33,505 nucleotides of DNA, taken from the NCBI GenBank assembly GCA_944391535.1, contig CALXTY010000006.1, positions 1 to 33,505 on the forward strand, given 5' to 3'. The stretch comes from an uncultured Alphaproteobacteria bacterium (lineage in GTDB: Bacteria > Pseudomonadota > Alphaproteobacteria > CAAGCB01 > CAG-977). Position 1 is the first letter of the stretch. Each line of letters starts with the position of its first letter. A model generated the notes under the pieces. The model ran no database searches, had not been told where the DNA came from, and was given only the letters and a program-made list of their open reading frames with translations. Positions 6,434-30,686 of this stretch are shown here, piece by piece. A program made the position numbers and the translations under genes.

Positions 6434-7027
6434 ATGCGCAAACTGACCGAAAAAAAAATAGTTCTGGCTACGCATAACATCGGCAAAGTCAAAGAAATGC
6501 AGGCCATGCTCGATCCTTTCGGCGTTACCGTTTTATCCGCGGACGATCTGAAACTGTCTGAACCCGAAGAAAACGGAAAAACGTTTATTGAAAATGCCAA
6601 AATCAAAGCCTTGTGCGCCGCAAAGGAAGCGAATATGCCGGCATTGGCGGACGATTCCGGCTTATGCGTGCACGCGTTGGATAACAGACCGGGGATTTAT
6701 TCGGCACGCTATAACGAACCGAAAAAAAACGGTTTTATGTACGCGATGGAAAAACTCAATGAGGAACTGGGCGATCAAAAAGACCGTTCGGCTCATTTTT
6801 CCTGCGCGATCGTGATCGCGTGGCCTGACGGACAAACCGAAGAATTTGAGGGAAAAGTCAACGGAACGCTTTGCTGGCCGCCCAAAGGAGAAAAAGGTTT
6901 CGGTTATGATCCGATGTTTGTTCCGGACGGTTATCAGCTTTCGTTTGCCGAATTGCCGGCGGAAGAAAAAAATAAAATCAGTCACCGCGCGCGGGCTTTG
7001 AAATTATTTACGGATCACTGTCTGTGA
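6434..7027 (+). CDS. rdgB: XTP/dITP pyrophosphatase (RdgB/HAM1 family)
   Basis: Hydrolyses non-canonical purine nucleoside triphosphates (dITP, XTP) to monophosphates and pyrophosphate, keeping them out of DNA and RNA. The 197-aa protein carries the family motifs ATHNIGKVKEMQ at the N-terminus (substrate binding), LADDSGLCVHALDNRPGIYS with the catalytic Asp, GFGYDPMF, and SHRARAL at the C-terminus. The start ATG lies 1 nt after the rph stop, with GGGAG just upstream. The stop codon overlaps the GTG start of hemW. Confidence 0.96.
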   Translation: MRKLTEKKIVLATHNIGKVKEMQAMLDPFGVTVLSADDLKLSEPEENGKTFIENAKIKALCAAKEANMPALADDSGLCVHALDNRPGIYSARYNEPKKNGFMYAMEKLNEELGDQKDRSAHFSCAIVIAWPDGQTEEFEGKVNGTLCWPPKGEKGFGYDPMFVPDGYQLSFAELPAEEKNKISHRARALKLFTDHCL

Positions 7028-8142
7028 GCGGTTTTGGTATCTATATCCATTGGCCGTTTTGCCGATCCAAATGTCCTTATTGCGACTTTGCGAGCAGAGC
7101 GGAAAAAAATTTTGATTTTCAAGCTTGGAAAACGGCTTACGCCCAAAGCCTGAAATCATACGCTTCAAGAACGGAAAACAAACAGGTTTCCAGTATTTTT
7201 TTCGGCGGCGGAACCCCTTCTTTAATGAATGAAGAACTTGTTTCTTTCGTTATCGAAACAATTTATTCGCTTTGGAAGACCAAAGAAGATATTGAAATCT
7301 CTCTGGAAGCAAATCCCTGTTCGATTGATCTTGAAAAAATGAGGGCTTTAAAAAAAGCCGGCATCAATCGTCTGTCTGTCGGCGTTCAGGCTTTAAATGA
7401 TAAAGACTTGAAATTTTTAGGACGCCTGCACACCGTTGAACAGGCGTTGGAAACGATTAAAAACGCCAAGCAGGTTTTTCCCCTCGTGTCTGCCGATTTT
7501 ATTTACGGACGCCCCGATCAGTCTTTACAAGACTGGAGAGTCGAACTCGAAAAGATATTGGAACTTAATCTGAAACATCTTTCCCTGTATCAGCTGACAA
7601 TTGAAGAAGGAACGGTTTTTTATAAAAAAGGCGTTCAACCGCCCGAAGAAGAACTGGCCGCCGATTTGTTTGAATTGACTGACCGTTTGACGTATCAGGC
7701 GGGGCTTGAACGTTATGAGGTTTCAAACCATGCCGTTAAAGGAGATGAATGTCGGCATAATCTTCTTTATTGGCAGGGTGGAGAATGGCTCGGCGTCGGT
7801 CCCGCCGCCCACGGACGGTTTACGCAAGACGGTCTGTTTTACGCAACGGCGCAAGACAAAAATCCTGCCGTCTGGTTAAACAATCAAATGGCGGAAGAAA
7901 TCGTTTTGGAATCGAAAGAAAAGGCGGAAGAGCTGATTTTTATGGCATTAAGGACACGAGAGGGCATTGACAGAAAAACCTTTTTCAATGTCATCGGAAA
8001 AGATCCCGAAGCCTTTATGGATACGGGAACTTTACAGGACTATCAAACGGACGGTTTCCTGATTTGCGATCAAAACGGCATTCGCACAACGGCCAAAGGA
8101 TTAATGATTTTGAACGCCTTGTGTAGGACTTTGCTGATTTGA
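7024..8142 (+). CDS. hemW: Radical SAM heme chaperone HemW
   Basis: HemW is a radical-SAM protein that delivers heme to respiratory proteins; it was long misnamed as an anaerobic coproporphyrinogen oxidase. The 372-aa protein has the iron-sulfur motif C13-x3-C17-x2-C20 in HWPFCRSKCPYCDF. The fourth cysteine that marks true HemN is absent (Phe22 follows Asp21). FFGGGTPSLM, NRLSVGVQALND and the C-terminal HemN_C winged-helix region are present. The start is GTG 7024, overlapping the rdgB stop as GTGA. The 3' end overlaps the convergent LppC gene by 42 nt, so the two transcripts are partly antisense. Confidence 0.93.
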   Translation: MSGFGIYIHWPFCRSKCPYCDFASRAEKNFDFQAWKTAYAQSLKSYASRTENKQVSSIFFGGGTPSLMNEELVSFVIETIYSLWKTKEDIEISLEANPCSIDLEKMRALKKAGINRLSVGVQALNDKDLKFLGRLHTVEQALETIKNAKQVFPLVSADFIYGRPDQSLQDWRVELEKILELNLKHLSLYQLTIEEGTVFYKKGVQPPEEELAADLFELTDRLTYQAGLERYEVSNHAVKGDECRHNLLYWQGGEWLGVGPAAHGRFTQDGLFYATAQDKNPAVWLNNQMAEEIVLESKEKAEELIFMALRTREGIDRKTFFNVIGKDPEAFMDTGTLQDYQTDGFLICDQNGIRTTAKGLMILNALCRTLLI

Positions 8143-11481: not shown

Positions 11482-12504
11482 TCATTCCTGATGTTCTATT
11501 TTATCCAAACTGATCACATCGTCTTCCAACGCATCGGAAAAAGAATCATCAAAAACGACTTCGCCGATTTCCTCTTTTTCCATTTGAATGACATCTTCAT
11601 CAACAACCGAGTTCACCGATGCAGTCTGTTCGAGCGAAGGTTTATTTGTTTCCGTCTTGTTGCTCAATTTACGAATGATCGTATCCAACTGTTCCAATGT
11701 TTCATACGTCAGAATCAATTCCCCGCCGACAGCTTTGGGACGAATGGCGACGTTGATCCCCAATACTCGAGACAAATCTTTTGCCAAAGCGTCACATTCC
11801 TCTTGTTTATCGGATTTTTTCGCAGATGTTGTTTTCTTTTTCTTTTCCAATCCTTCCTGCGCCAATTTTTCCGTCTGTCGGACGTTCAATCCTTTGGCGA
11901 TCACCGCATCCGCCAAAACTTCCGGTTCTTTTGCCGTTAACAAAGCCCGCGCGTGACCGGAAGTCAGTTTTCCGGTTTCCAAATATTTCTTGACTTTCTC
12001 AGGCAAACCTAACAAACGGATCGTATTAGCGACATGACTGCGGCTTTTCCCGACAGCTTTCGCCAGTTCTTCCTGCGTATTGGCAAACTCGTCCATTAAA
12101 CGACGATATCCTTCCGCCTCTTCCAACGCGTTTAAATCCTGACGTTGCAGGTTCTCGATCAAAGCGACTTCCAAAGCTTCTTTATCCGTCAATTCTTTGA
12201 TTAAAACGGGAACTTCAGTCAACCCCGCCAGTTGGGAAGCTCTCCAACGGCGTTCCCCGCCGACAATTTCATACTTGTTTTCAAATCCGTCTTTTAAACG
12301 CACGATCAAAGGCTGTAAGACGCCTTTCGTGCGAATGGATTCCACCAGGTCATTGATGGCTTCTTCGTCAAAAACACGGCGCGGCTGAAACGGACTGGGT
12401 TCCAGATCGGACAACAAAACGGTTTTAATGCTTTGATTTTCTTCTTCGGAGGCGCTTTCTCCTAAAAGAGCGTTCAATCCGCGACCTAAATTTTTTGATG
12501 ACAT
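11482..12504 (-). CDS. parB: Chromosome partitioning protein ParB
   Basis: ParB is a CTP-dependent clamp that loads at parS and spreads to form the origin segregation complex. The 340-aa protein begins KNLGRGLNALLGE, the usual ParA-contacting N-terminus. The ParB/Srx domain includes PFQPRRVFDEEAINDL, the CTP-binding GGERRWRA and ENLQRQDLNALEEA. The helix-turn-helix is NTQEELAKAVGKSRSHVANTIRLLGLP. A charged linker precedes the C-terminal dimerisation region, after which there is an unusual acidic tail (residues about 300-340). It overlaps parA by 19 nt. Two matching parS sites lie about 1.5 kb upstream. Confidence 0.97.
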   Translation of the reverse strand: MSSKNLGRGLNALLGESASEEENQSIKTVLLSDLEPSPFQPRRVFDEEAINDLVESIRTKGVLQPLIVRLKDGFENKYEIVGGERRWRASQLAGLTEVPVLIKELTDKEALEVALIENLQRQDLNALEEAEGYRRLMDEFANTQEELAKAVGKSRSHVANTIRLLGLPEKVKKYLETGKLTSGHARALLTAKEPEVLADAVIAKGLNVRQTEKLAQEGLEKKKKTTSAKKSDKQEECDALAKDLSRVLGINVAIRPKAVGGELILTYETLEQLDTIIRKLSNKTETNKPSLEQTASVNSVVDEDVIQMEKEEIGEVVFDDSFSDALEDDVISLDKIEHQE

Positions 12505-13289
12505 CTTTTTGCCTCCTGCTTTAAAACTTCGCTTGCCAGACTGATATAAGCCTGCGCGCCTTTACTTCTGAAATCATACAGTAAAATCGGTTTGCCGTGT
12601 GACGGCGCTTCCGACACGCGCACATTGCGCGGAATGATCGAACTGTAGACCTTATTACCAAAATATCCCCGCACGTCTTGCGCAACGACTTCCGACAATC
12701 CCGTGCGACCGTCAAACATTGTCAGAACAATACCCTGAATTTCCAGATCATGATTAAAATTACGCTTGACCCGATCAATCGTTTTCATCAGATCCGCCAC
12801 TCCTTCCAACGCCAGATATTCGCACTGAACCGGAACAATGACGGAATCCGCCGCCACCAAAGCGTTTACGGTCAGCATGCCGACAGCCGGAGGGCAGTCA
12901 ATAAAAATATAGTCATAAGAAAGCATTTCGGCATCCAAAGCTTTCTTTAAAAAGAACTGCGGATTTTCCTGATGCGACAATTCAAAATCGGCACCCGCCA
13001 GATCTTTGGAGGAAACGACAACCGACAAATTCGGAATCTTCGTCCATATGATCGAAGAAGAAATTTTCGTTTCCCCCATCAAAACCTGATACATATTTTT
13101 CGGAGCGTTTTTTCTGTCGATTCCGAAACTGACCGTGGCATTCCCCTGCGGATCCAGATCCAGCACCAAAACCTTTTTATTCACAGCGGCCAAAGCCGTT
13201 GCCAAATTAACGGCCGTTGTTGTTTTACCGACTCCGCCTTTTTGATTCGATACCGCAATAATACGCGGATCACAATTTAAAATGCTCAT
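12486..13289 (-). CDS. parA: Chromosome partitioning ATPase ParA (Soj)
   Basis: ParA is a DNA-binding ATPase whose gradient pulls ParB-parS complexes towards the cell pole. The 267-aa protein has the deviant Walker A KGGVGKTTTAVNLATAL near residue 18, VLDLDPQGNATVSFGI (Walker A'), and FIDCPPAVGMLTVNAL (Walker B). It lies between rsmG (4-nt overlap) and parB (19-nt overlap), the classic alphaproteobacterial order. Confidence 0.97.
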   Translation of the reverse strand: MSILNCDPRIIAVSNQKGGVGKTTTAVNLATALAAVNKKVLVLDLDPQGNATVSFGIDRKNAPKNMYQVLMGETKISSSIIWTKIPNLSVVVSSKDLAGADFELSHQENPQFFLKKALDAEMLSYDYIFIDCPPAVGMLTVNALVAADSVIVPVQCEYLALEGVADLMKTIDRVKRNFNHDLEIQGIVLTMFDGRTGLSEVVAQDVRGYFGNKVYSSIIPRNVRVSEAPSHGKPILLYDFRSKGAQAYISLASEVLKQEAKRCHQKI

Positions 13290-13909
13290 TTCTTTCTGAC
13301 CTCCGAAAGCAAAAGAATCGTTCCTTCCGAACTGGTGACACTTTGAATTTTTTCAAAGTGAAAATTATATTTCTTTAAAGCCGGCTCCAATTCCTCTTGC
13401 GCTTTCAATCCCTTCATAAATACGCAACGCGTGTTCGTTTTTAAAAAAGGATAAGCGTATTTGATCAATTTATCTAAAGATGCCAAAGCTCTGGCCGTAA
13501 TGACGTCTACATTAAATTTTTCCATTTGTTCGATACGTTCGTTATGCACTTCGGCTTTTAAGTCGCATACATCTATAATTTTATTTAAAAAAGCGCATTT
13601 TTTTCCGTCACTTTCCACCAAATGAAAATCATATTGGCGATTGATATCCATGATTGCCAATACCAAAGCCGGAAATCCCGCGCCGCTGCCTAAGTCCAAA
13701 ACAACCTTGTCCGTCGGTGACAATAACTTAAACAACTGAGCCGAATCCAAAATATGTCTTGTCCAAACAATCGGTAATGTCGAATTGCCCACCAAATTCA
13801 ATTTAGATTGTTCCTGTTCCAACAATTCAACATATCGATCCAGTTTTTCAACAACCGGATCAGATAATTGAAGTTGTTTTAAAACATTATCCCGATCTTG
13901 CGTGATCAC
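13286..13909 (-). CDS. rsmG: 16S rRNA (guanine527-N7)-methyltransferase RsmG
   Basis: Methylates G527 of 16S rRNA at N7; loss gives low-level streptomycin resistance in other bacteria. The 207-aa protein has the N-terminal LDRYVELLEQEQSKLNLVG helix region and SAM-binding motif I VVLDLGSGAGFPALVLAI. The start is GTG 13909, preceded by a weak AAAGG. In most alphaproteobacteria mnmE-mnmG sits directly upstream; here the upstream region holds parS sites instead. It overlaps parA by 4 nt. Confidence 0.95.
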   Translation of the reverse strand: MITQDRDNVLKQLQLSDPVVEKLDRYVELLEQEQSKLNLVGNSTLPIVWTRHILDSAQLFKLLSPTDKVVLDLGSGAGFPALVLAIMDINRQYDFHLVESDGKKCAFLNKIIDVCDLKAEVHNERIEQMEKFNVDVITARALASLDKLIKYAYPFLKTNTRCVFMKGLKAQEELEPALKKYNFHFEKIQSVTSSEGTILLLSEVRKK

Positions 13910-13921
13910 TTTTTTGCCTTT

Positions 13922-13937
13922 TGTTTCACGTGAAACA
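13922..13937. promoter_or_regulatory. parS site 1 (ParB-binding centromere)
   Basis: A perfect 16-bp palindrome TGTTTCACGTGAAACA, identical to the canonical bacterial parS. It lies 12 nt upstream of the rsmG start, where bound ParB could also reduce transcription of rsmG-parAB. Confidence 0.95.
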
Positions 13938-13988
13938 TTTTCTGACTGATTTTTTTATAAAATAGCTTTTGTTGATATAAAAACTCAA

Positions 13989-14011
13989 GCAGAAAAAAAT
14001 TTTTTTTCTGC
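13989..14011. repeat. A/T palindrome between the two parS sites
   Basis: The arms GCAGAAAAAAA and TTTTTTTCTGC are exact reverse complements around one central T. It could act as a weak terminator for the CHR genes (transcribed leftward into it), as a bent A-tract, or as a nucleoid-protein site. The stem has few G-C pairs, so a normal intrinsic terminator is not certain. Confidence 0.75.
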
Positions 14012-14016
14012 CAAAA

Positions 14017-14032
14017 TGTTTCACGTGAAACA
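14017..14032. promoter_or_regulatory. parS site 2 (ParB-binding centromere)
   Basis: A second perfect copy of TGTTTCACGTGAAACA, 95 bp from site 1 centre to centre and 1 nt from the stop codon of the downstream CHR gene. ParB is encoded about 1.5 kb away and the candidate oriC about 7 kb away, as expected for an origin-proximal centromere. Confidence 0.95.
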
Positions 14033-14033
14033 T

Positions 14034-14558
14034 TTAATATAAAAAGATACCGATGACAGCCGCCCCTAAAATTAATGTAATCGGAGAAACATTATAACGA
14101 TAACACGCGATGAATGAAGCGATACATAACAAAACGCTTGTATAATCTATAAAATTTTCAGGGGTCATTAAAATTAACGCCGCCCCCAAAATTAAACCGA
14201 TCACGGCGATCTTCAATCCCTTAAAAGCGTTTTTAACATGAACGGATTCTTTGAATTTCTGCAAAAAAGCATACAGTAAAATAACAACGATTAAAGACGG
14301 CAGACAAACACCCGCCGTTGCACAGGCCGCCCCCCAGATCGTTCCTGTCGTCGAATAACCGATATACGTTGCCGCATTGATCGCAATCGGTCCCGGAGTC
14401 ACCTGAGAAACGGCGACAATATCCGTAAATTGAGAATTCGTAATCCAGTTGTGATTGCTGACAACTTCATTTTGAATTAACGGCAACATGGCATATCCGC
14501 CGCCAAAGCTGAACATGCCGATCATAAAAAACGTTTTAAAAAGTTGCAGAAAAATCAT
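14034..14558 (-). CDS. Chromate transporter (CHR) family half-protein, second subunit
   Basis: A 174-aa membrane protein consisting of one CHR domain with about five or six hydrophobic segments. The CHR signature is clear: FSFGGGYAMLPLIQ (residues 17-30) and DIVAVSQVTPGPIAINAATYIG (about 46-67). Short-chain CHR proteins work as pairs that together equal one long ChrA, and are implicated in chromate/sulfate or other anion transport; the substrate here is unknown. It overlaps its partner by 4 nt and ends next to parS site 2. Such pairs are frequent in anaerobic Firmicutes and Bacteroidetes, so acquisition is plausible. Confidence 0.87.
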   Translation of the reverse strand: MIFLQLFKTFFMIGMFSFGGGYAMLPLIQNEVVSNHNWITNSQFTDIVAVSQVTPGPIAINAATYIGYSTTGTIWGAACATAGVCLPSLIVVILLYAFLQKFKESVHVKNAFKGLKIAVIGLILGAALILMTPENFIDYTSVLLCIASFIACYRYNVSPITLILGAAVIGIFLY

Positions 14559-15091
14559 TCTTTTTTATACCCGTAATAAAGAATACCGATCACGATTGAA
14601 GCGATAATAATATAAATCGGAGATAACGGCGTAAACGTAATCAATAAAGCAATTACAACAGGAATCAGAAACTTAAATCCGATAACGCCCGTCCGCTTGG
14701 CAATCGTAACAACAGGAACCAAAATCAAAGCAACAGAAGCCGGTTTGATCGCCTTAAACGCCGCAATAAACATCGGTTCGTTCTGAATTCCCTGAAACAG
14801 CATCGCTATCATTAAAATAATAATAAATGACGGTAAGACAGACCCGAAGGCCGTTGCGATCAACCCTTTAACACCGCCTATCCTCAATCCCAAAAAAATC
14901 GCCAAATTAACGGCAATCGGTCCGGGGGCCGATTGTGTCACGGCAACGATATCAATAAATTCGTCTTCGTCCAGCCAATGGCGCCGCGTGACCAATTCCC
15001 TTTTAATCTGCGGCATCATTGCCAATCCGCTGCCCAGTGTAAAAGCGCCGATTTTAAAGAAAACACAAAAAAGTTCCCAAGCCTGATACAT
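14555..15091 (-). CDS. Chromate transporter (CHR) family half-protein, first subunit
   Basis: A 178-aa membrane protein with one CHR domain: FTLGSGLAMMPQIKREL at residues 17-33 and DIVAVTQSAPGPIAVNLAIFLG at about 47-68, followed by four or five hydrophobic segments. It is the promoter-proximal member of a short-chain CHR pair with the 14034-14558 gene and shares a 4-nt overlap with it. A strong promoter with a TATAAT -10 lies upstream, overlapped by an inverted repeat, so it may be regulated by a DNA-binding protein not encoded here. Confidence 0.87.
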   Translation of the reverse strand: MYQAWELFCVFFKIGAFTLGSGLAMMPQIKRELVTRRHWLDEDEFIDIVAVTQSAPGPIAVNLAIFLGLRIGGVKGLIATAFGSVLPSFIIILMIAMLFQGIQNEPMFIAAFKAIKPASVALILVPVVTIAKRTGVIGFKFLIPVVIALLITFTPLSPIYIIIASIVIGILYYGYKKE

Positions 15092-15119
15092 ATTTCACCG
15101 TTTTTTGAATATTTTCATC

Positions 15120-15147
15120 ATTATACTTTTGTTGATTCCTTAATCAA
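15120..15147 (-). promoter_or_regulatory. Promoter of the CHR pair with an overlapping operator-like dyad
   Basis: On the minus strand TTGATT (15142-15147), 16 nt, then a perfect TATAAT (15120-15125). The -35 and spacer form the inverted repeat TTGATTCCTTAATCAA (15132-15147; plus-strand reading), a likely operator. The predicted leader to ATG 15091 is about 20 nt. Confidence 0.65.
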
Positions 15148-15374
15148 GAATTAAAAAATTTTTAGTCATTCAAAAATACGAAAATGTTTTTATTTCGATT
15201 CTGAAAGAACCTTGAAAATAAAACGATTATAAAGAAAATATTCCGTTTTTTTCCTTTCCTGAAAAATGTGAAGTTAAAAACTTTTTTAAAACTGTTTTAA
15301 AAAAGAAAAAAAGAGGAATTTTTCTTTCTTCCTCTCTTTTTTGTATTTGTTTTCATTACGTAATAACATAGGGA
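15148..15374. other. AT-rich intergenic region downstream of hslU
   Basis: This stretch between the CHR promoter and the hslU stop has no credible gene. It is very A/T-rich and contains a near-perfect A/T hairpin (15281-15306, arms CTTTTTTAAAA and TTTTAAAAAAAG around CTG) followed by the hslVU terminator. Confidence 0.6.
15302..15336 (-). terminator. Intrinsic terminator of hslVU
   Basis: Read on the minus strand, AGAGGAA (15330-15336) pairs with TTCCTCT (15313-15319) across a 10-nt A-rich loop, and the stem runs into a T-run (15302-15312, interrupted once). It lies about 40 nt after the hslU stop codon. Confidence 0.7.
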
Positions 15375-19709: not shown

Positions 19710-20963
19710 TTAAGAGTTCATCGCTTCGAAAAAGTCGTAATTGTTTTTCGACTGCTTGAGTTTTTCCATTAAAAATTCCATCGCGTCCGCCGGTCCCATC
19801 GGCATCAAAATACGGCGCAACACCCACATCTTGGACAAGATATCTTTGCCGACCAGCAGTTCTTCCTTACGCGTGCCGGATTTCGTAATGTCAATCGCGG
19901 GGAATATACGTTTGTCGGACACTTTGCGATCCAAAATGATTTCCGAGTTACCCGTTCCTTTGAATTCTTCGAAAATCACTTCGTCCATACGGGATCCCGT
20001 GTCGATCAAAGCCGTCGCGATGATCGTTAAAGAGCCGCCTTCTTCAATATTTCTGGCCGCGCCGAAAAAGCGTTTCGGTTTTTGCAAAGCGTTGGCGTCA
20101 ACACCGCCCGTTAAAACCTTGCCGGAGCTCGGTACAACCGTATTGTAAGCTCTGGCCAGGCGCGTAATGGAATCCAGCAAAATAACGACATCGCGTTTGT
20201 GTTCGACCAAACGTTTGGCTTTTTCAATCACCATTTCCGCCACCTGAACATGGCGGGCGGCCGGTTCGTCAAAGGTGGAGCTGATGACTTCGCCTTTAAT
20301 CGTGCGGCTCATTTCCGTGACTTCTTCCGGGCGTTCGTCAATCAGCAAAACAATCAGGTAAATTTCGGGATTGTTTTGTGTGATCGCGTGCGCAATGTTT
20401 TGCAACATCACGGTTTTACCGGTTCTGGGCGGCGCAACGATCATACCGCGCTGTCCTTTTCCCTGAGGACAAATCAAATCAATGATTCTGGACGTCATGT
20501 TTTTGTTATCCAGATCGTTTTCCATCTTGATCTTTTCTGTCGGGTGAAGCGGCGTCAGGTTATCGAAATTAATGCGGTAACGAACGTTTTCGGGATCCGT
20601 AAAGTTGATCTTTAACACTTTGGATAAAGCAAAATACTTTTCACCGTCCTTCGGCGCGCGCAATTCGCCTTCGACCGTGTCGCCCGTTCTTAATCCGAAC
20701 TTGCGCACCTGACTCGGGGAAACGTAAATATCATCCGGTCCCGGCAGATAGTTCGATTCCGGAGAACGTAAAAATCCGAAGCCGTCCTGTAAGACTTCAA
20801 TCACGCCTTCGTCAACCAAAACTTCGTCATTTTTGGACAACTGCTTTAAAATCGCAAACGTCAAATCCTGCGTGCGTAACGTTGAAGCGTTTTCGACACC
20901 CAGTTCTTCCGCCATACTTAACAGTTCGGCGGGAGATTTCTTTTTCAAATCTTTTAAATGCAT
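19710..20963 (-). CDS. rho: Transcription termination factor Rho
   Basis: A hexameric RNA helicase that terminates transcription. The 417-aa protein has the N-terminal Rho_N region ([18 protein letters not shown]), a cold-shock-like RNA-binding domain ([19 protein letters not shown] at about 57-75), and the RecA-like motor with Walker A APPRTGKT at 177-184, Walker [17 protein letters not shown], and the R-loop segment [17 protein letters not shown]. No inserted domain is seen. It points leftward, away from the candidate oriC, and stands where rho or hemE borders the origin in other alphaproteobacteria. Confidence 0.98.
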
Positions 20964-20991
20964 ATAAACTCTGTATCGTTGTTAAGGAAAA

Positions 20992-21050
20992 CGGGCGATG
21001 TTGCCCGAAGAAGAGAGTTTTCTTTTATCTTTTTTGGCACAGTCGGTCAA
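20992..21050 (-). promoter_or_regulatory. Candidate rho promoter and leader hairpin
   Basis: On the minus strand TTGACC (21045-21050), 17 nt, TAAAAG (21022-21027) predicts a start near 21015 and a leader of about 50 nt. The leader contains a perfect 5-bp stem, CGGGC with GCCCG (20992-21007, 6-nt loop), that could form early in the transcript. rho is autoregulated by leader termination in other bacteria; whether this hairpin takes part is unknown. Confidence 0.4.
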
Positions 21051-21099
21051 GTCGAAAAAAATTCTCCTTCAAATAATTTATTTAAAAATAAGATGTTGT

Positions 21100-21390
21100 T
21101 CTTGTTGTTCGTTGTGGATAAGTGGGACGCAATTTTATCAACAGATTTTCAACAGAAATAGTCACACTTTCATGGTATGGGAAAAAAGACTGTAAAATAA
21201 AATTAAAAAAAGATTCTATGACGATTCGCTCCTGTCTGTGGATAACGAGGATCATTTTTTATCCGTTTTTTTATCAAAACAGTGATTTTTTTTATACACA
21301 TCTGTATAAAAAACAGGACATAATCGAATAAAAGGGATAAAAATAAAGAAACTCTTTACTTATCAGACTTATGCACAGGGGTTTGAAAAA
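21100..21390. other. Probable chromosomal origin of replication (oriC)
   Basis: A gene-free AT-rich stretch (the whole rho-maf gap is 20964-21390) with DnaA boxes: TTATCCACA on the minus strand at 21113-21121 and 21237-21245, TTATACACA at 21292-21300, TTATGCACA at 21369-21377, plus the weaker TTATCAACA at 21135-21143. Between 21246 and 21360 the DNA is strongly A/T-rich, suitable for unwinding. Two GANTC sites (21212-21216 and 21223-21227), the CcrM methylation motif of alphaproteobacteria, lie 11 bp apart. The gap adjoins maf-aroE-coaE-dnaQ, which in Caulobacter also begins at the origin, and flanking genes diverge from it. parS and parAB are about 7 kb away. Confidence 0.85.
21288..21313. 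repeat. Inverted repeat with DnaA box inside oriC
   Basis: The arms TTTTTTATACA (21288-21298) and TGTATAAAAAA (21303-21313) are exact reverse complements around the loop CATC. The left arm and loop contain the box TTATACACA; the opposite strand carries the one-mismatch box TTATACAGA. This places two facing DnaA-box-like sequences in one dyad. Confidence 0.85.
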
Positions 21391-21981
21391 ATGTTGATAT
21401 TGGCTTCCAAAAGTAAAAGCAGGCAAGATCTTTTAGACGCGGCAGGCGTTGATTTTAAATGCGTTTCCGCCGGCATTGACGAAGACGCCATTAAAAAGGA
21501 AATGCGGGTTGACGGACAGGACAGTCTGCAGACCAGTCTTCAGTTGGCAACGCAAAAAGCGATGGCCGTTTCTAAAAAGTATCCGAAAGCTTTTGTGATC
21601 GGCGCCGATCAGATTTTGGATTTAAACGGTGAATGGTTTTCCAAGCCCGCCGATGTGAACATCGCTCATAAGCATTTAAAAAAATTAAGAAATAAAACGC
21701 ACTTGTTGGTCAACGGAACGGCCGTTGTCAAAAACGGCAGTCTGGTATGGTTTGACAACTCTGTGGTAAAAGTGACGATGCGCGATTTTTCCGATAACTT
21801 TTTGGACGATTATTTGGCCGAAGCCGGTGAAGACGTCTGCAATTCGGTCGGAGCTTATTATATGGAAGATCTGGGCGCGCAGTTGGTCAAATCGTATGAA
21901 GGCGATTATTTTTCAATTCTCGGGTTGCCCTTGTTGCCTTTGTTGGAATGCCTCAGAACGTGCGGAGAGCTTGAAAAATGA
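21391..21981 (+). CDS. Maf-like nucleotide pyrophosphatase
   Basis: Hydrolyses modified or non-canonical nucleoside triphosphates (families act on dTTP/UTP or 7-methyl-GTP). The 196-aa protein starts LILASKSKSRQDLLDAAGVDF, the Maf substrate-binding motif, and has VIGADQIL with the catalytic Asp, and SVGAYYMEDLGAQLVKSYEGDYF with the conserved C-terminal motif. The GADQIL form resembles the YceF-type enzyme more than the GADTVV type. It is the first gene rightward from the candidate oriC, equivalent to the first gene of the Caulobacter chromosome as I recall it. It overlaps aroE by 4 nt. Confidence 0.92.
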   Translation: MLILASKSKSRQDLLDAAGVDFKCVSAGIDEDAIKKEMRVDGQDSLQTSLQLATQKAMAVSKKYPKAFVIGADQILDLNGEWFSKPADVNIAHKHLKKLRNKTHLLVNGTAVVKNGSLVWFDNSVVKVTMRDFSDNFLDDYLAEAGEDVCNSVGAYYMEDLGAQLVKSYEGDYFSILGLPLLPLLECLRTCGELEK

Positions 21982-27513: not shown

Positions 27514-28824
27514 ATGAACGGAACCATTTTTGCACCGGCAACGGCTTTGGGAAAAGCGGGCGTAGCTGTCATACGCATTTCCGGATCACGCGCGATTGAA
27601 GCGATCCGACACATGACAGCCGTCAAAGAACCCGTTCCCAGAAAAGCGATTTTTACGCAGATTCATTCTTTGGACAAAACAGCGATAGATAACGGGTTGG
27701 TGTTGTATTTTCCCTGTCCGAACAGTTTTACCGGAGAAGATGTGGTTGAATTTCAAACGCACGGCGGCCGCGCGATTATGGCGGCCGTGCTTTCAGAGCT
27801 GTCTAAAATCAAGGATTTTCGTCCCGCCGAACGCGGCGAGTTTACCAGACGCGCGGTTGAAAACGGCAAAATGGATCTGACCGCCGCCGAAGGATTGGCC
27901 GATTTGGTTGATGCCGAAACCGAACAACAAAGAAAGCAGGCTTTGCGTCAAATGGACGGTGCTTTGGCAAAAATCTACGAAGATTGGCATGATCGGTTGT
28001 TGCATGTATTGGCTTGGATGGAAGCGTATATTGATTTTCCGGAAGAAGAAATTCCGCAAAGCGTTTCCGAAGACGTACGCCATAAAATCGGCGGATTAAT
28101 GTCTGAAATTCAAGCGCATTTAAATGACGGACGGCGCGGGGAAAAACTGCGTGACGGATTTCAAATCGCCATTATCGGGGCGCCGAACGCGGGTAAATCA
28201 AGTTTAATGAACCGTTTGGCTCAGCGTGATGTCGCCATTGTTTCTTCAACGGCGGGGACAACGCGGGATATTATTGAAGTTCGTTTGGATATTAACGGCT
28301 ATCCGGTGATTGTCGCCGATACGGCGGGATTGCGCGAAACCGAAGAGGAAATCGAAGCCGAAGGCGTACGGCGTGCCAAAAAAAGAGCCGAGGAAGCCGA
28401 TCTGGTTTTATGGCTTACGGACGCTTTAAAACATAAAAATCCGAAGGAAGCGCAAGGCATTGACAGTCAAAAAATCATATCCGTCATGAATAAAGCCGAT
28501 AAGGCGAGCGATATTAAAAATGATGAAAATATATGGATTTCTGCCAAAACGGGGCAGGGCATAGAAGTGCTTTTGGAAAAGATCGGACACTTTGTCGAAG
28601 AAAAGATGGCTCTGCGCGAAGAACCGTCTTTAACCCGATTGCGGCACAGGAAATCATTGGAAGAATGTATGCAGTGCTTAAATTCCTCTTTAAAAGCGCC
28701 GGAAATAGAGCTGATGACGGAAGACTTGCGTATGGCGATGCGTTCTTTGGGCAAGATAACGGGGCAGGTGCAGGTCGAAGAACTGTTGGACGTGATCTTT
28801 AAAGATTTTTGCATAGGAAAATAA
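27514..28824 (+). CDS. mnmE: tRNA uridine-5-carboxymethylaminomethyl modification GTPase MnmE
   Basis: MnmE and MnmG together install cmnm5 groups at wobble U34 of certain tRNAs. The 436-aa protein has an N-terminal tetrahydrofolate-binding domain ([37 protein letters not shown]), a helical domain, an inserted G domain (Walker A GAPNAGKS at 222-229, [12 protein letters not shown]) and the C-terminal FCIGK with the conserved Cys. The start ATG has AGGGA upstream. The stop overlaps the mnmG start by one base. Its position next to smr is unusual; the normal partner rsmG is 13.6 kb away on the other side of oriC. Confidence 0.97.
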
Positions 28825-30686
28825 TGACGAACACTTTTGATGTAATTGTTGTCGGCGGCGGTCATGCCGGTTGCGAAGCAGCGGCGGCGGCGGCCAGAAT
28901 GGGCGCAAAAACGCTTTTATTGACGCATAAAATCGCAACAATCGGCGAAATGTCCTGCAATCCCGCCATCGGCGGATTGGGAAAAGGTCATCTGGTGCGT
29001 GAAATTGACGCTTTGGACGGCGTTATGGGGCGAATCGCCGATCAGGCCGGCATTCAATTCAGATTGCTGAACAGTTCCAAAGGTCCCGCCGTTCAAGGAT
29101 TGCGCACACAGGCGGACAGAAAACTGTACAGACAAGCCATGCAGGCGGAACTGTTGAATTATGAAAATTTAACGGTTAAAGAATGTGCCGTGGAAGGCTT
29201 GATTTATCAGGAAAATCCTCTGTGCGTCACCGGTGTCGAAGGCAGTGACGGTTCGGTTTATAAGGCTTCCGCAATTGTTTTGACGGCGGGAACGTTTCTG
29301 CACGGTCTGATGCACGTCGGAGAAACAAAAACGATCGGCGGACGGGTCGGAGATGTTTCCTGTGAACACTTGTCCGATTTTCTTGTCCGTCTGGGATTAA
29401 CCGTCGGCAGATTAAAAACGGGAACGCCGGCGCGTTTGGACGGGAAAACGATTAACTATGATATTATCCAACGTCAGGAAGGCGATCCTGATCCGGAACC
29501 TTTTTCTTTTCTGGACGATAAAATCACCACCCCGCAAATCGCCTGTCATATAACGGCCACCAATAAAACAACGCACGACATCATTCGGGCGAATATGCAT
29601 CGCGCGCCGTTATTTTCAGGACAAATCAAAGGAGTCGGTCCTCGTTATTGTCCCAGTATCGAAGATAAACTGGTGAAATTCGCCGAAAGGGATTCTCATC
29701 ACGTCTTCTTGGAACCCGAAGGACTTGACGACGATACCGTTTATCCGAACGGTATTTCAACCTCTTTGCCGGCGGACGTGCAAGACGCGATGATCCATTC
29801 CATCAAAGGGCTTGAAAATGTCCGGATTATCCGTCCGGGATACGCGATTGAATATGATTATGTCGATCCTTTGGAAATGCGCACGACCCTTGAAACAAAA
29901 AAAGTGTCGGGATTGTTTATCGCGGGTCAGTTGAACGGAACGACAGGCTATGAAGAAGCCGCCGCTTTGGGATTGTTGGCGGGGATCAACGCCGCGTTGA
30001 AAGCGGCCGGATCGTCAAAAGAATTCACGTTGGATCGCGCCGACGCCTATTTGGGCGTCATGATTGACGATTTGACAACCAAAGGGGTTGACGAACCGTA
30101 TCGCATGTTTACTTCTCGTGCTGAATACAGGCTTTTGTTGCGTTCGGACAACGCCGATATGCGTTTAACACCCAAAGGTATTGAAATCGGTTGTGTCGGA
30201 ACAAAACGCCGACAATATTTTGAAGAAAAAGTCAAAGCTTTAAACGAAGCGCGTCAAAAGCTGATCCAGATCGGCGGGACTCCGAGAGAATTGGAAAAGT
30301 TGGGATTTGAAGTCAATAAAGACGGATCGCATCGAAACGGGTTTGATTTATTGGCGTACGAGAAAATCGACTGGCAGGCTTTGGCCGCGGTTTGGCCTCA
30401 ATTGCAAAACACGCGTAAAGACGTTGTCGAACAGTTGGAAATCGAATCAAAATACCGCGGTTATTTGCAACGTCAGGAATCCGATATCATCGCTTTTCGC
30501 AAAGACGAGGCTTTGAAAATTCCGGCGGATATCGACTATAAAAAGATCGGCGGATTGTCTAACGAAGTCATTATGAAATTAAATAAAGTCCGCCCCGAAA
30601 CATTGGGAGCCGCTTCGCGCATTTCAGGAGTAACCCCTGCCGCCGTCACCGCCGTTTTGGGATATATCAAGTCGGCAAAAAACTAA
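28824..30686 (+). CDS. mnmG: tRNA uridine-5-carboxymethylaminomethyl modification enzyme MnmG (GidA)
   Basis: The FAD- and NADH-binding partner of MnmE. The 620-aa protein begins with the dinucleotide fold [20 protein letters not shown], followed by [50 protein letters not shown], and the second signature [20 protein letters not shown]. The C-terminal tRNA- and MnmE-binding domain is intact (about 540-620). ATG 28824 overlaps the mnmE stop (TAATG). The last 4 nt overlap the convergent unknown gene. Confidence 0.98.

Follow-up and report, generated by a model that had tools for sequence, protein, structure and literature searches.

The closest described relatives of the locus reported here are the replication origin of Caulobacter crescentus, which lies between hemE and COG1806 (PMC1914354), and the unwinding system, or BUS, of Bacillus subtilis, in which duplex opening is directed by a DnaA box together with the DnaA-trios (3'-GAT-5', with a middle A) that come after it (PMC6669920, PMC8287927). 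The middle base of the trio is touched by residue Asn187 of the B. subtilis DnaA, and a T in place of this base lowers activity (PMC10721633); deviant trios devoid of the middle adenine have been anticipated (PMC8287927). The BUS rule calls for three or more NAN triplets (consensus 3'-GAT-5') no farther than 16 bp from a DnaA box.

The window, that is, the whole stretch of DNA that was analysed, corresponds to the entire contig C6 (33.5 kb) of a draft alphaproteobacterial genome of 1.92 Mb, in 197 contigs and 88.8% complete. It was compared with other genomes of its order. The nine named relatives are Alphaproteobacteria assembled from metagenomes, and rumen or faeces was the source of several. 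The intergenic region between rho and maf, a gap of 427 bases, is in all probability (roughly 94%) the chromosomal replication origin, a reading that includes opening from DnaA box 1 and bidirectional forks. What the sequence itself shows is the position, the conserved boxes, the skew switch, the gene order, the parS sites, and genes for DnaA, CcrM and CtrA. The features of the locus are the following, with the basis of each in brackets.

20964-21390, unstranded: predicted oriC, the whole rho-maf gap (box cluster, skew minimum, conservation in 12 genomes)
19710-20963, minus strand: rho, left border (ORF list, gene order)
21391-21981, plus strand: maf, right border and first gene of maf-aroE-coaE-dnaQ (ORF list, gene order)
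21054-21094, unstranded: predicted unwinding site, A/T-rich and the least stable part of the gap (nearest-neighbour stability; A/T-rich in relatives too; role inferred)
21089-21112, plus strand: DnaA-trio-like run with a period of three bases, 3'-GTT-5' in the direction leading away from box 1 (lag-3 and G-phase tests; role inferred)
21113-21121, minus strand: DnaA box 1, TTATCCACA (exact match; mean column conservation 0.97)
21135-21143, plus strand: weaker DnaA box, TTATCAACA (several relatives have an exact TTATCCACA or TTATTCACA here)
21212-21216, unstranded: GANTC site 1, possible CcrM methylation site (motif match; weakly conserved)
21223-21227, unstranded: second GANTC, a possible target of CcrM methylation (most of the genus has it at -166 to -168 from maf)
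21237-21245, minus strand: DnaA box 2, TTATCCACA (exact match and conservation)
21292-21300, plus strand: DnaA box 3, TTATACACA (exact match and conservation)
21361-21373, plus strand: candidate IHF site that matches WATCAN5WTR and overlaps box 4 (8 of 12 genomes have a match at -30 from maf; low-information motif)
21369-21377, plus strand: DnaA box 4, TTATGCACA (exact match and conservation)
11482-13289, minus strand: parB and parA (ORF list, gene order)
13922-14032, unstranded: origin-proximal centromere with two perfect parS sites (TGTTTCACGTGAAACA, starting at 13922 and at 14017; motif match)

A first-pass annotation had proposed this gap as an oriC, and its description of the DNA is confirmed: the four strict TTATNCACA boxes are where it had placed them, the weaker box is present at 21135-21143, the flanking genes diverge, the gap is A/T-rich (69% A+T), and it is the longest gene-free interval of the window, the next one seen in the ORF list measuring 283 bp (15092-15374). 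A cluster of this kind in A/T-rich intergenic DNA goes well beyond chance, since a first-order Markov null predicts 0.019 strict boxes in the gap and three or more were reached in none of 5000 simulations (the whole window holds 5, against 0.96 expected). The draft genome as a whole carries 54 strict boxes, with at most two in any 300-bp stretch outside the gap, and the rho-maf gap is the sole four-box cluster within its 1.92 Mb. In a gap alignment across 12 genomes of the order, the conservation of the four boxes exceeds that of random 9-mers drawn from the gap (a value as high came up in 2 of 10,000 draws), box 1 being the best conserved; in the genus of the window they are found at approximately -278, -154, -99 and -22 from the start of maf. 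The dnaA gene, reported as missing from the window, is indeed located on another contig (C155), which contains no strict box; a denser cluster of DnaA boxes was found neither near dnaA nor anywhere else in the draft genome, and an origin in the neighbourhood of dnaA was rejected. An Rfam search of the window and of the gap gave nothing at gathering score, and a snoRNA match was discarded as chance-level (E 0.11, far under its threshold).

DnaA boxes also occur elsewhere in this genome. Two TTATCCACA boxes in the same direction, exactly 200 bp apart, are present in the intergenic DNA upstream of uvrC on contig C61 (positions 2553 and 2753), accompanied by a conserved GANTC and an A/T-rich stretch, and the same spacing is seen in at least four relatives. 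This pair is possibly a DnaA-titration or reactivation site; a second origin there was rejected, as the skew is negative throughout the surrounding 132-kb contig in G202.

The GC-skew check suggested with the first-pass annotation, computed on the 33.5-kb contig, places the cumulative minimum at position 20922, at the gap. Among ten relatives, analysed on contigs of 66-374 kb, eight have their minimum 0.4-1.8 kb upstream of maf (-420, -464, -465, -474, -487, -1035, -1066 and -1790 bp from its start). In these eight, as in the window, the gap sits at the skew minimum, the remaining two being displaced. In the latter (G203, contig C2, and G207, contig C44) the minimum lies at -19.7 and -23.9 kb from the maf start, 20-24 kb off the conserved box cluster, which may reflect local rearrangements.

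Two explanations that would deprive the gap of its role as an origin can be considered against these data. The gap could serve to titrate DnaA, or could hold the divergent promoters of rho and maf under DnaA regulation, with the true origin elsewhere; it does contain promoter-like sites and one terminator-like site, and the conserved pair upstream of uvrC, which has no skew switch, indicates that non-origin DnaA-box loci do occur here. However, the promoter-like matches are near the number found in shuffled sequence (3 vs 1.5), and a promoter or titration site leaves unexplained why eight relatives share the location of the skew minimum with the window. This possibility is very improbable. The skew switch itself could arise from the coding-strand bias of divergent gene blocks, as the minus strand carries most genes on the left side of the gap and the plus strand most of those on its right, or from the endpoint of an old inversion, a notion to which the two relatives with displaced minima lend some weight. 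The effects of replication and coding were separated by use of fourfold-degenerate sites, with the genes of each strand taken apart: plus and minus genes alike show the left/right shift, both in the window and in each of four relatives, and the shift reaches over 100-250 kb. Coding bias is largely refuted by these results, and an explanation of the switch without replication can be regarded as extremely unlikely.

The genomic context evokes the question of how the locus relates to the Caulobacter origin. In a survey of the class involving 190 genomes, 117 had matches to both hemE and maf; the two genes share a contig in 102 of these 117, and in 97 of the 102 they are divergent and less than 6 kb apart, with a median gap of 1305 bp. 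In 20 such outgroup regions the typical order is parB-parA-rsmG-mnmG-mnmE, then rho, then hemE, followed across the junction by maf-aroE-coaE-dnaQ-secB, with rho located 0.6-2.7 kb beyond hemE in 19 of the 20. By contrast, neither hemE nor COG1806 (PF03618) was found in any of the 12 genomes of the order of the window, 11 of which are more than 90% complete; the hemE and COG1806 borders of a Cori-type origin are consequently not seen here, but the locus has retained its ancestral position in front of maf. Since the Caulobacter origin is flanked by hemE and COG1806, and is not directly before maf as had been claimed, two border genes are missing here and not one. The gene order of other alphaproteobacteria identifies the position as the ancestral hemE-maf junction, and on its right side COG1806 has been lost as well. 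The suggestion that rho replaced hemE is to be corrected: rho already lay beyond hemE in the outgroups and became the border upon loss of this gene. In the simplest reading, both border genes would have been lost while the origin stayed in place, which would leave it between the next surviving genes; in the most distant relative examined, G207, rho is not beside the gap either. A hemW-like gene (7024-8142) is retained in the window, although hemE was not found in the order.

The parS pair is approximately 7 kb from the gap. It is adjoined by two chromate-transporter-like genes, named from their sequence (14034-15091), between rsmG and hslU. The mnmE-mnmG genes lie on the right of the origin (27514-30686) and rsmG-parA-parB on its left (11482-13909), whereas in outgroups they form one block on the left, a split that suggests an inversion across the origin.

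On the left of box 1 the three-base-periodic run gives way to the region of lowest stability within the gap, 21054-21094, which ranks fourth among the least stable 40-bp stretches of the whole window in a nearest-neighbour stability profile. The triplets of the run are mostly 3'-GTT-5' in the window, while those of G205 and G208 contain 3'-GAT-5'; the G periodicity exceeds that of shuffled letters (P=0.0002, an optimistic value because the rows are related). At box 1 of the window these mostly 3'-GTT-5' triplets depart from the published NAN rule, so the run is not classed as a BUS; box 2 offers one weak TAG-CAG-TAT run. In an alignment with the B. subtilis DnaA structure 8BTG, on which the residue number was counted, the equivalent of Asn187 is Tyr in the genus of the window; the sequences of G205, G206 and G208 have Arg there, and that of G199 has Phe. 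G206, with its Arg, has no clear 3'-GAT-5' triplets, and the covariation between DnaA residue and triplet, seen in few lineages, is suggestive only. Among alphaproteobacteria, Tyr may be a frequent residue here. It is conceivable, if rather unlikely, that the order uses deviant 3'-GTT-5' DnaA-trios by box 1 and that its DnaA reads them with an altered base-contacting residue: the genus of the window pairs Tyr with 3'-GTT-5', G205 and G208 pair Arg with 3'-GAT-5' triplets, G199 has Phe, and B. subtilis has Asn. Initiator and origin would then have co-evolved, and the origin would also have lost its CtrA sites. G207 encodes three full-length DnaA-like proteins (contigs C36, C31 and C8), two of them with a B. 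subtilis-like TNEI motif; these two may stem from contamination or another replicon.

The place of duplex opening deserves separate attention, given that the locus could be an origin that opens around boxes 2-4 (about 21254-21340), leaving the triplet run at box 1 without a role. That stretch is almost as unstable (-44 vs -41 kcal/mol per 40 bp), and it includes AAAAGGGATAAAA at 21331-21343, which is highly conserved; the 3-bp periodicity at box 1 above that of shuffles, and the superior conservation of this box, speak for the other side. Opening around boxes 2-4 is a serious contender, albeit one held at below even odds, and since it competes with the unwinding step only, its weight is not exclusive of the main explanation.

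The two GANTC sites are 11 bp apart, as annotated. At least one GANTC is present in all 12 gaps (25 in total, 13.8 expected), the motif is depleted on a 374-kb contig of a relative (1037 vs 1603 expected), and CcrM is encoded in all 12 genomes. CtrA is likewise encoded in all 12, with 65-68% identity to the Caulobacter query; the CtrA and CcrM results rest on match strength (65-74% identity) and not on a curated family. Although CtrA is encoded, the TTAA-N7-TTAA sites expected of a Cori-type origin are absent from the gap of the window, in strict or loose form, and strict sites are absent from 11 of the 12 gaps; control of this origin by CtrA was thus rejected.

The assignment of the gap as the origin is favoured because the four-box cluster is unique, the skew has its minimum there and shifts at fourfold-degenerate sites, the boxes are conserved, the location is ancestral, parS and parAB are nearby, and unstable A/T-rich DNA adjoins box 1; the sole box cluster, the skew minimum and the ancestral hemE-maf junction give the initial proposal strong support. 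What counts against it is the draft state of the genome, the shortness of the contig, the displaced skew minima of G203 and G207, and the departure of the trio-like run from the middle-A rule at box 1. In the predicted sequence of events, DnaA would bind the four strong boxes and weaker ones, and a DnaA filament would extend from box 1 along the run at 21089-21112 and open the A/T-rich stretch at 21054-21094. DnaB helicases would then load, with forks moving left past rho and parAB/parS and right past maf-aroE, and methylation of GANTC could have a role in timing. We hold with high confidence that this is, on the strength of its sequence, an origin of the ordinary kind, at its ancestral site without its customary neighbours.

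The precise placement of the origin in an uncultured gut and rumen order allows coverage-based estimates of growth rate. An origin can keep its place despite the loss of both customary border genes, and because both are gone, a search beside hemE or COG1806 fails here. The change from A to T in the trio-like run, together with the changed DnaA residue, provides a natural test of how DnaA recognizes single-stranded origin DNA.

In comparison to the Cori of Caulobacter crescentus and other hemE-COG1806 origins (PMC1914354), the locus is alike in its position ahead of maf-aroE-coaE-dnaQ-secB with parAB nearby, in its intergenic, A/T-rich nature, in its TTATNCACA cluster, and in the presence of GANTC and CcrM; it differs in that hemE and COG1806 are gone, rho is the left border, and TTAA-N7-TTAA CtrA sites are absent. 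The Wolbachia and Ehrlichia origins (PMC1914354) also kept the ancestral place after a border change, and some have few or no CtrA sites, but there hemE was kept and COG1806 exchanged for COG1253, whereas here both borders were lost. With the B. subtilis BUS (PMC6669920, PMC8287927, PMC10721633) the locus shares the succession of DnaA box, short spacer, three-base-periodic run and A/T-rich DNA, and in two sister genomes, G205 and G208, 3'-GAT-5' triplets are found at this place; in the genus of the window, by contrast, T mostly takes the middle position instead of A, and Asn187 aligns with Tyr.
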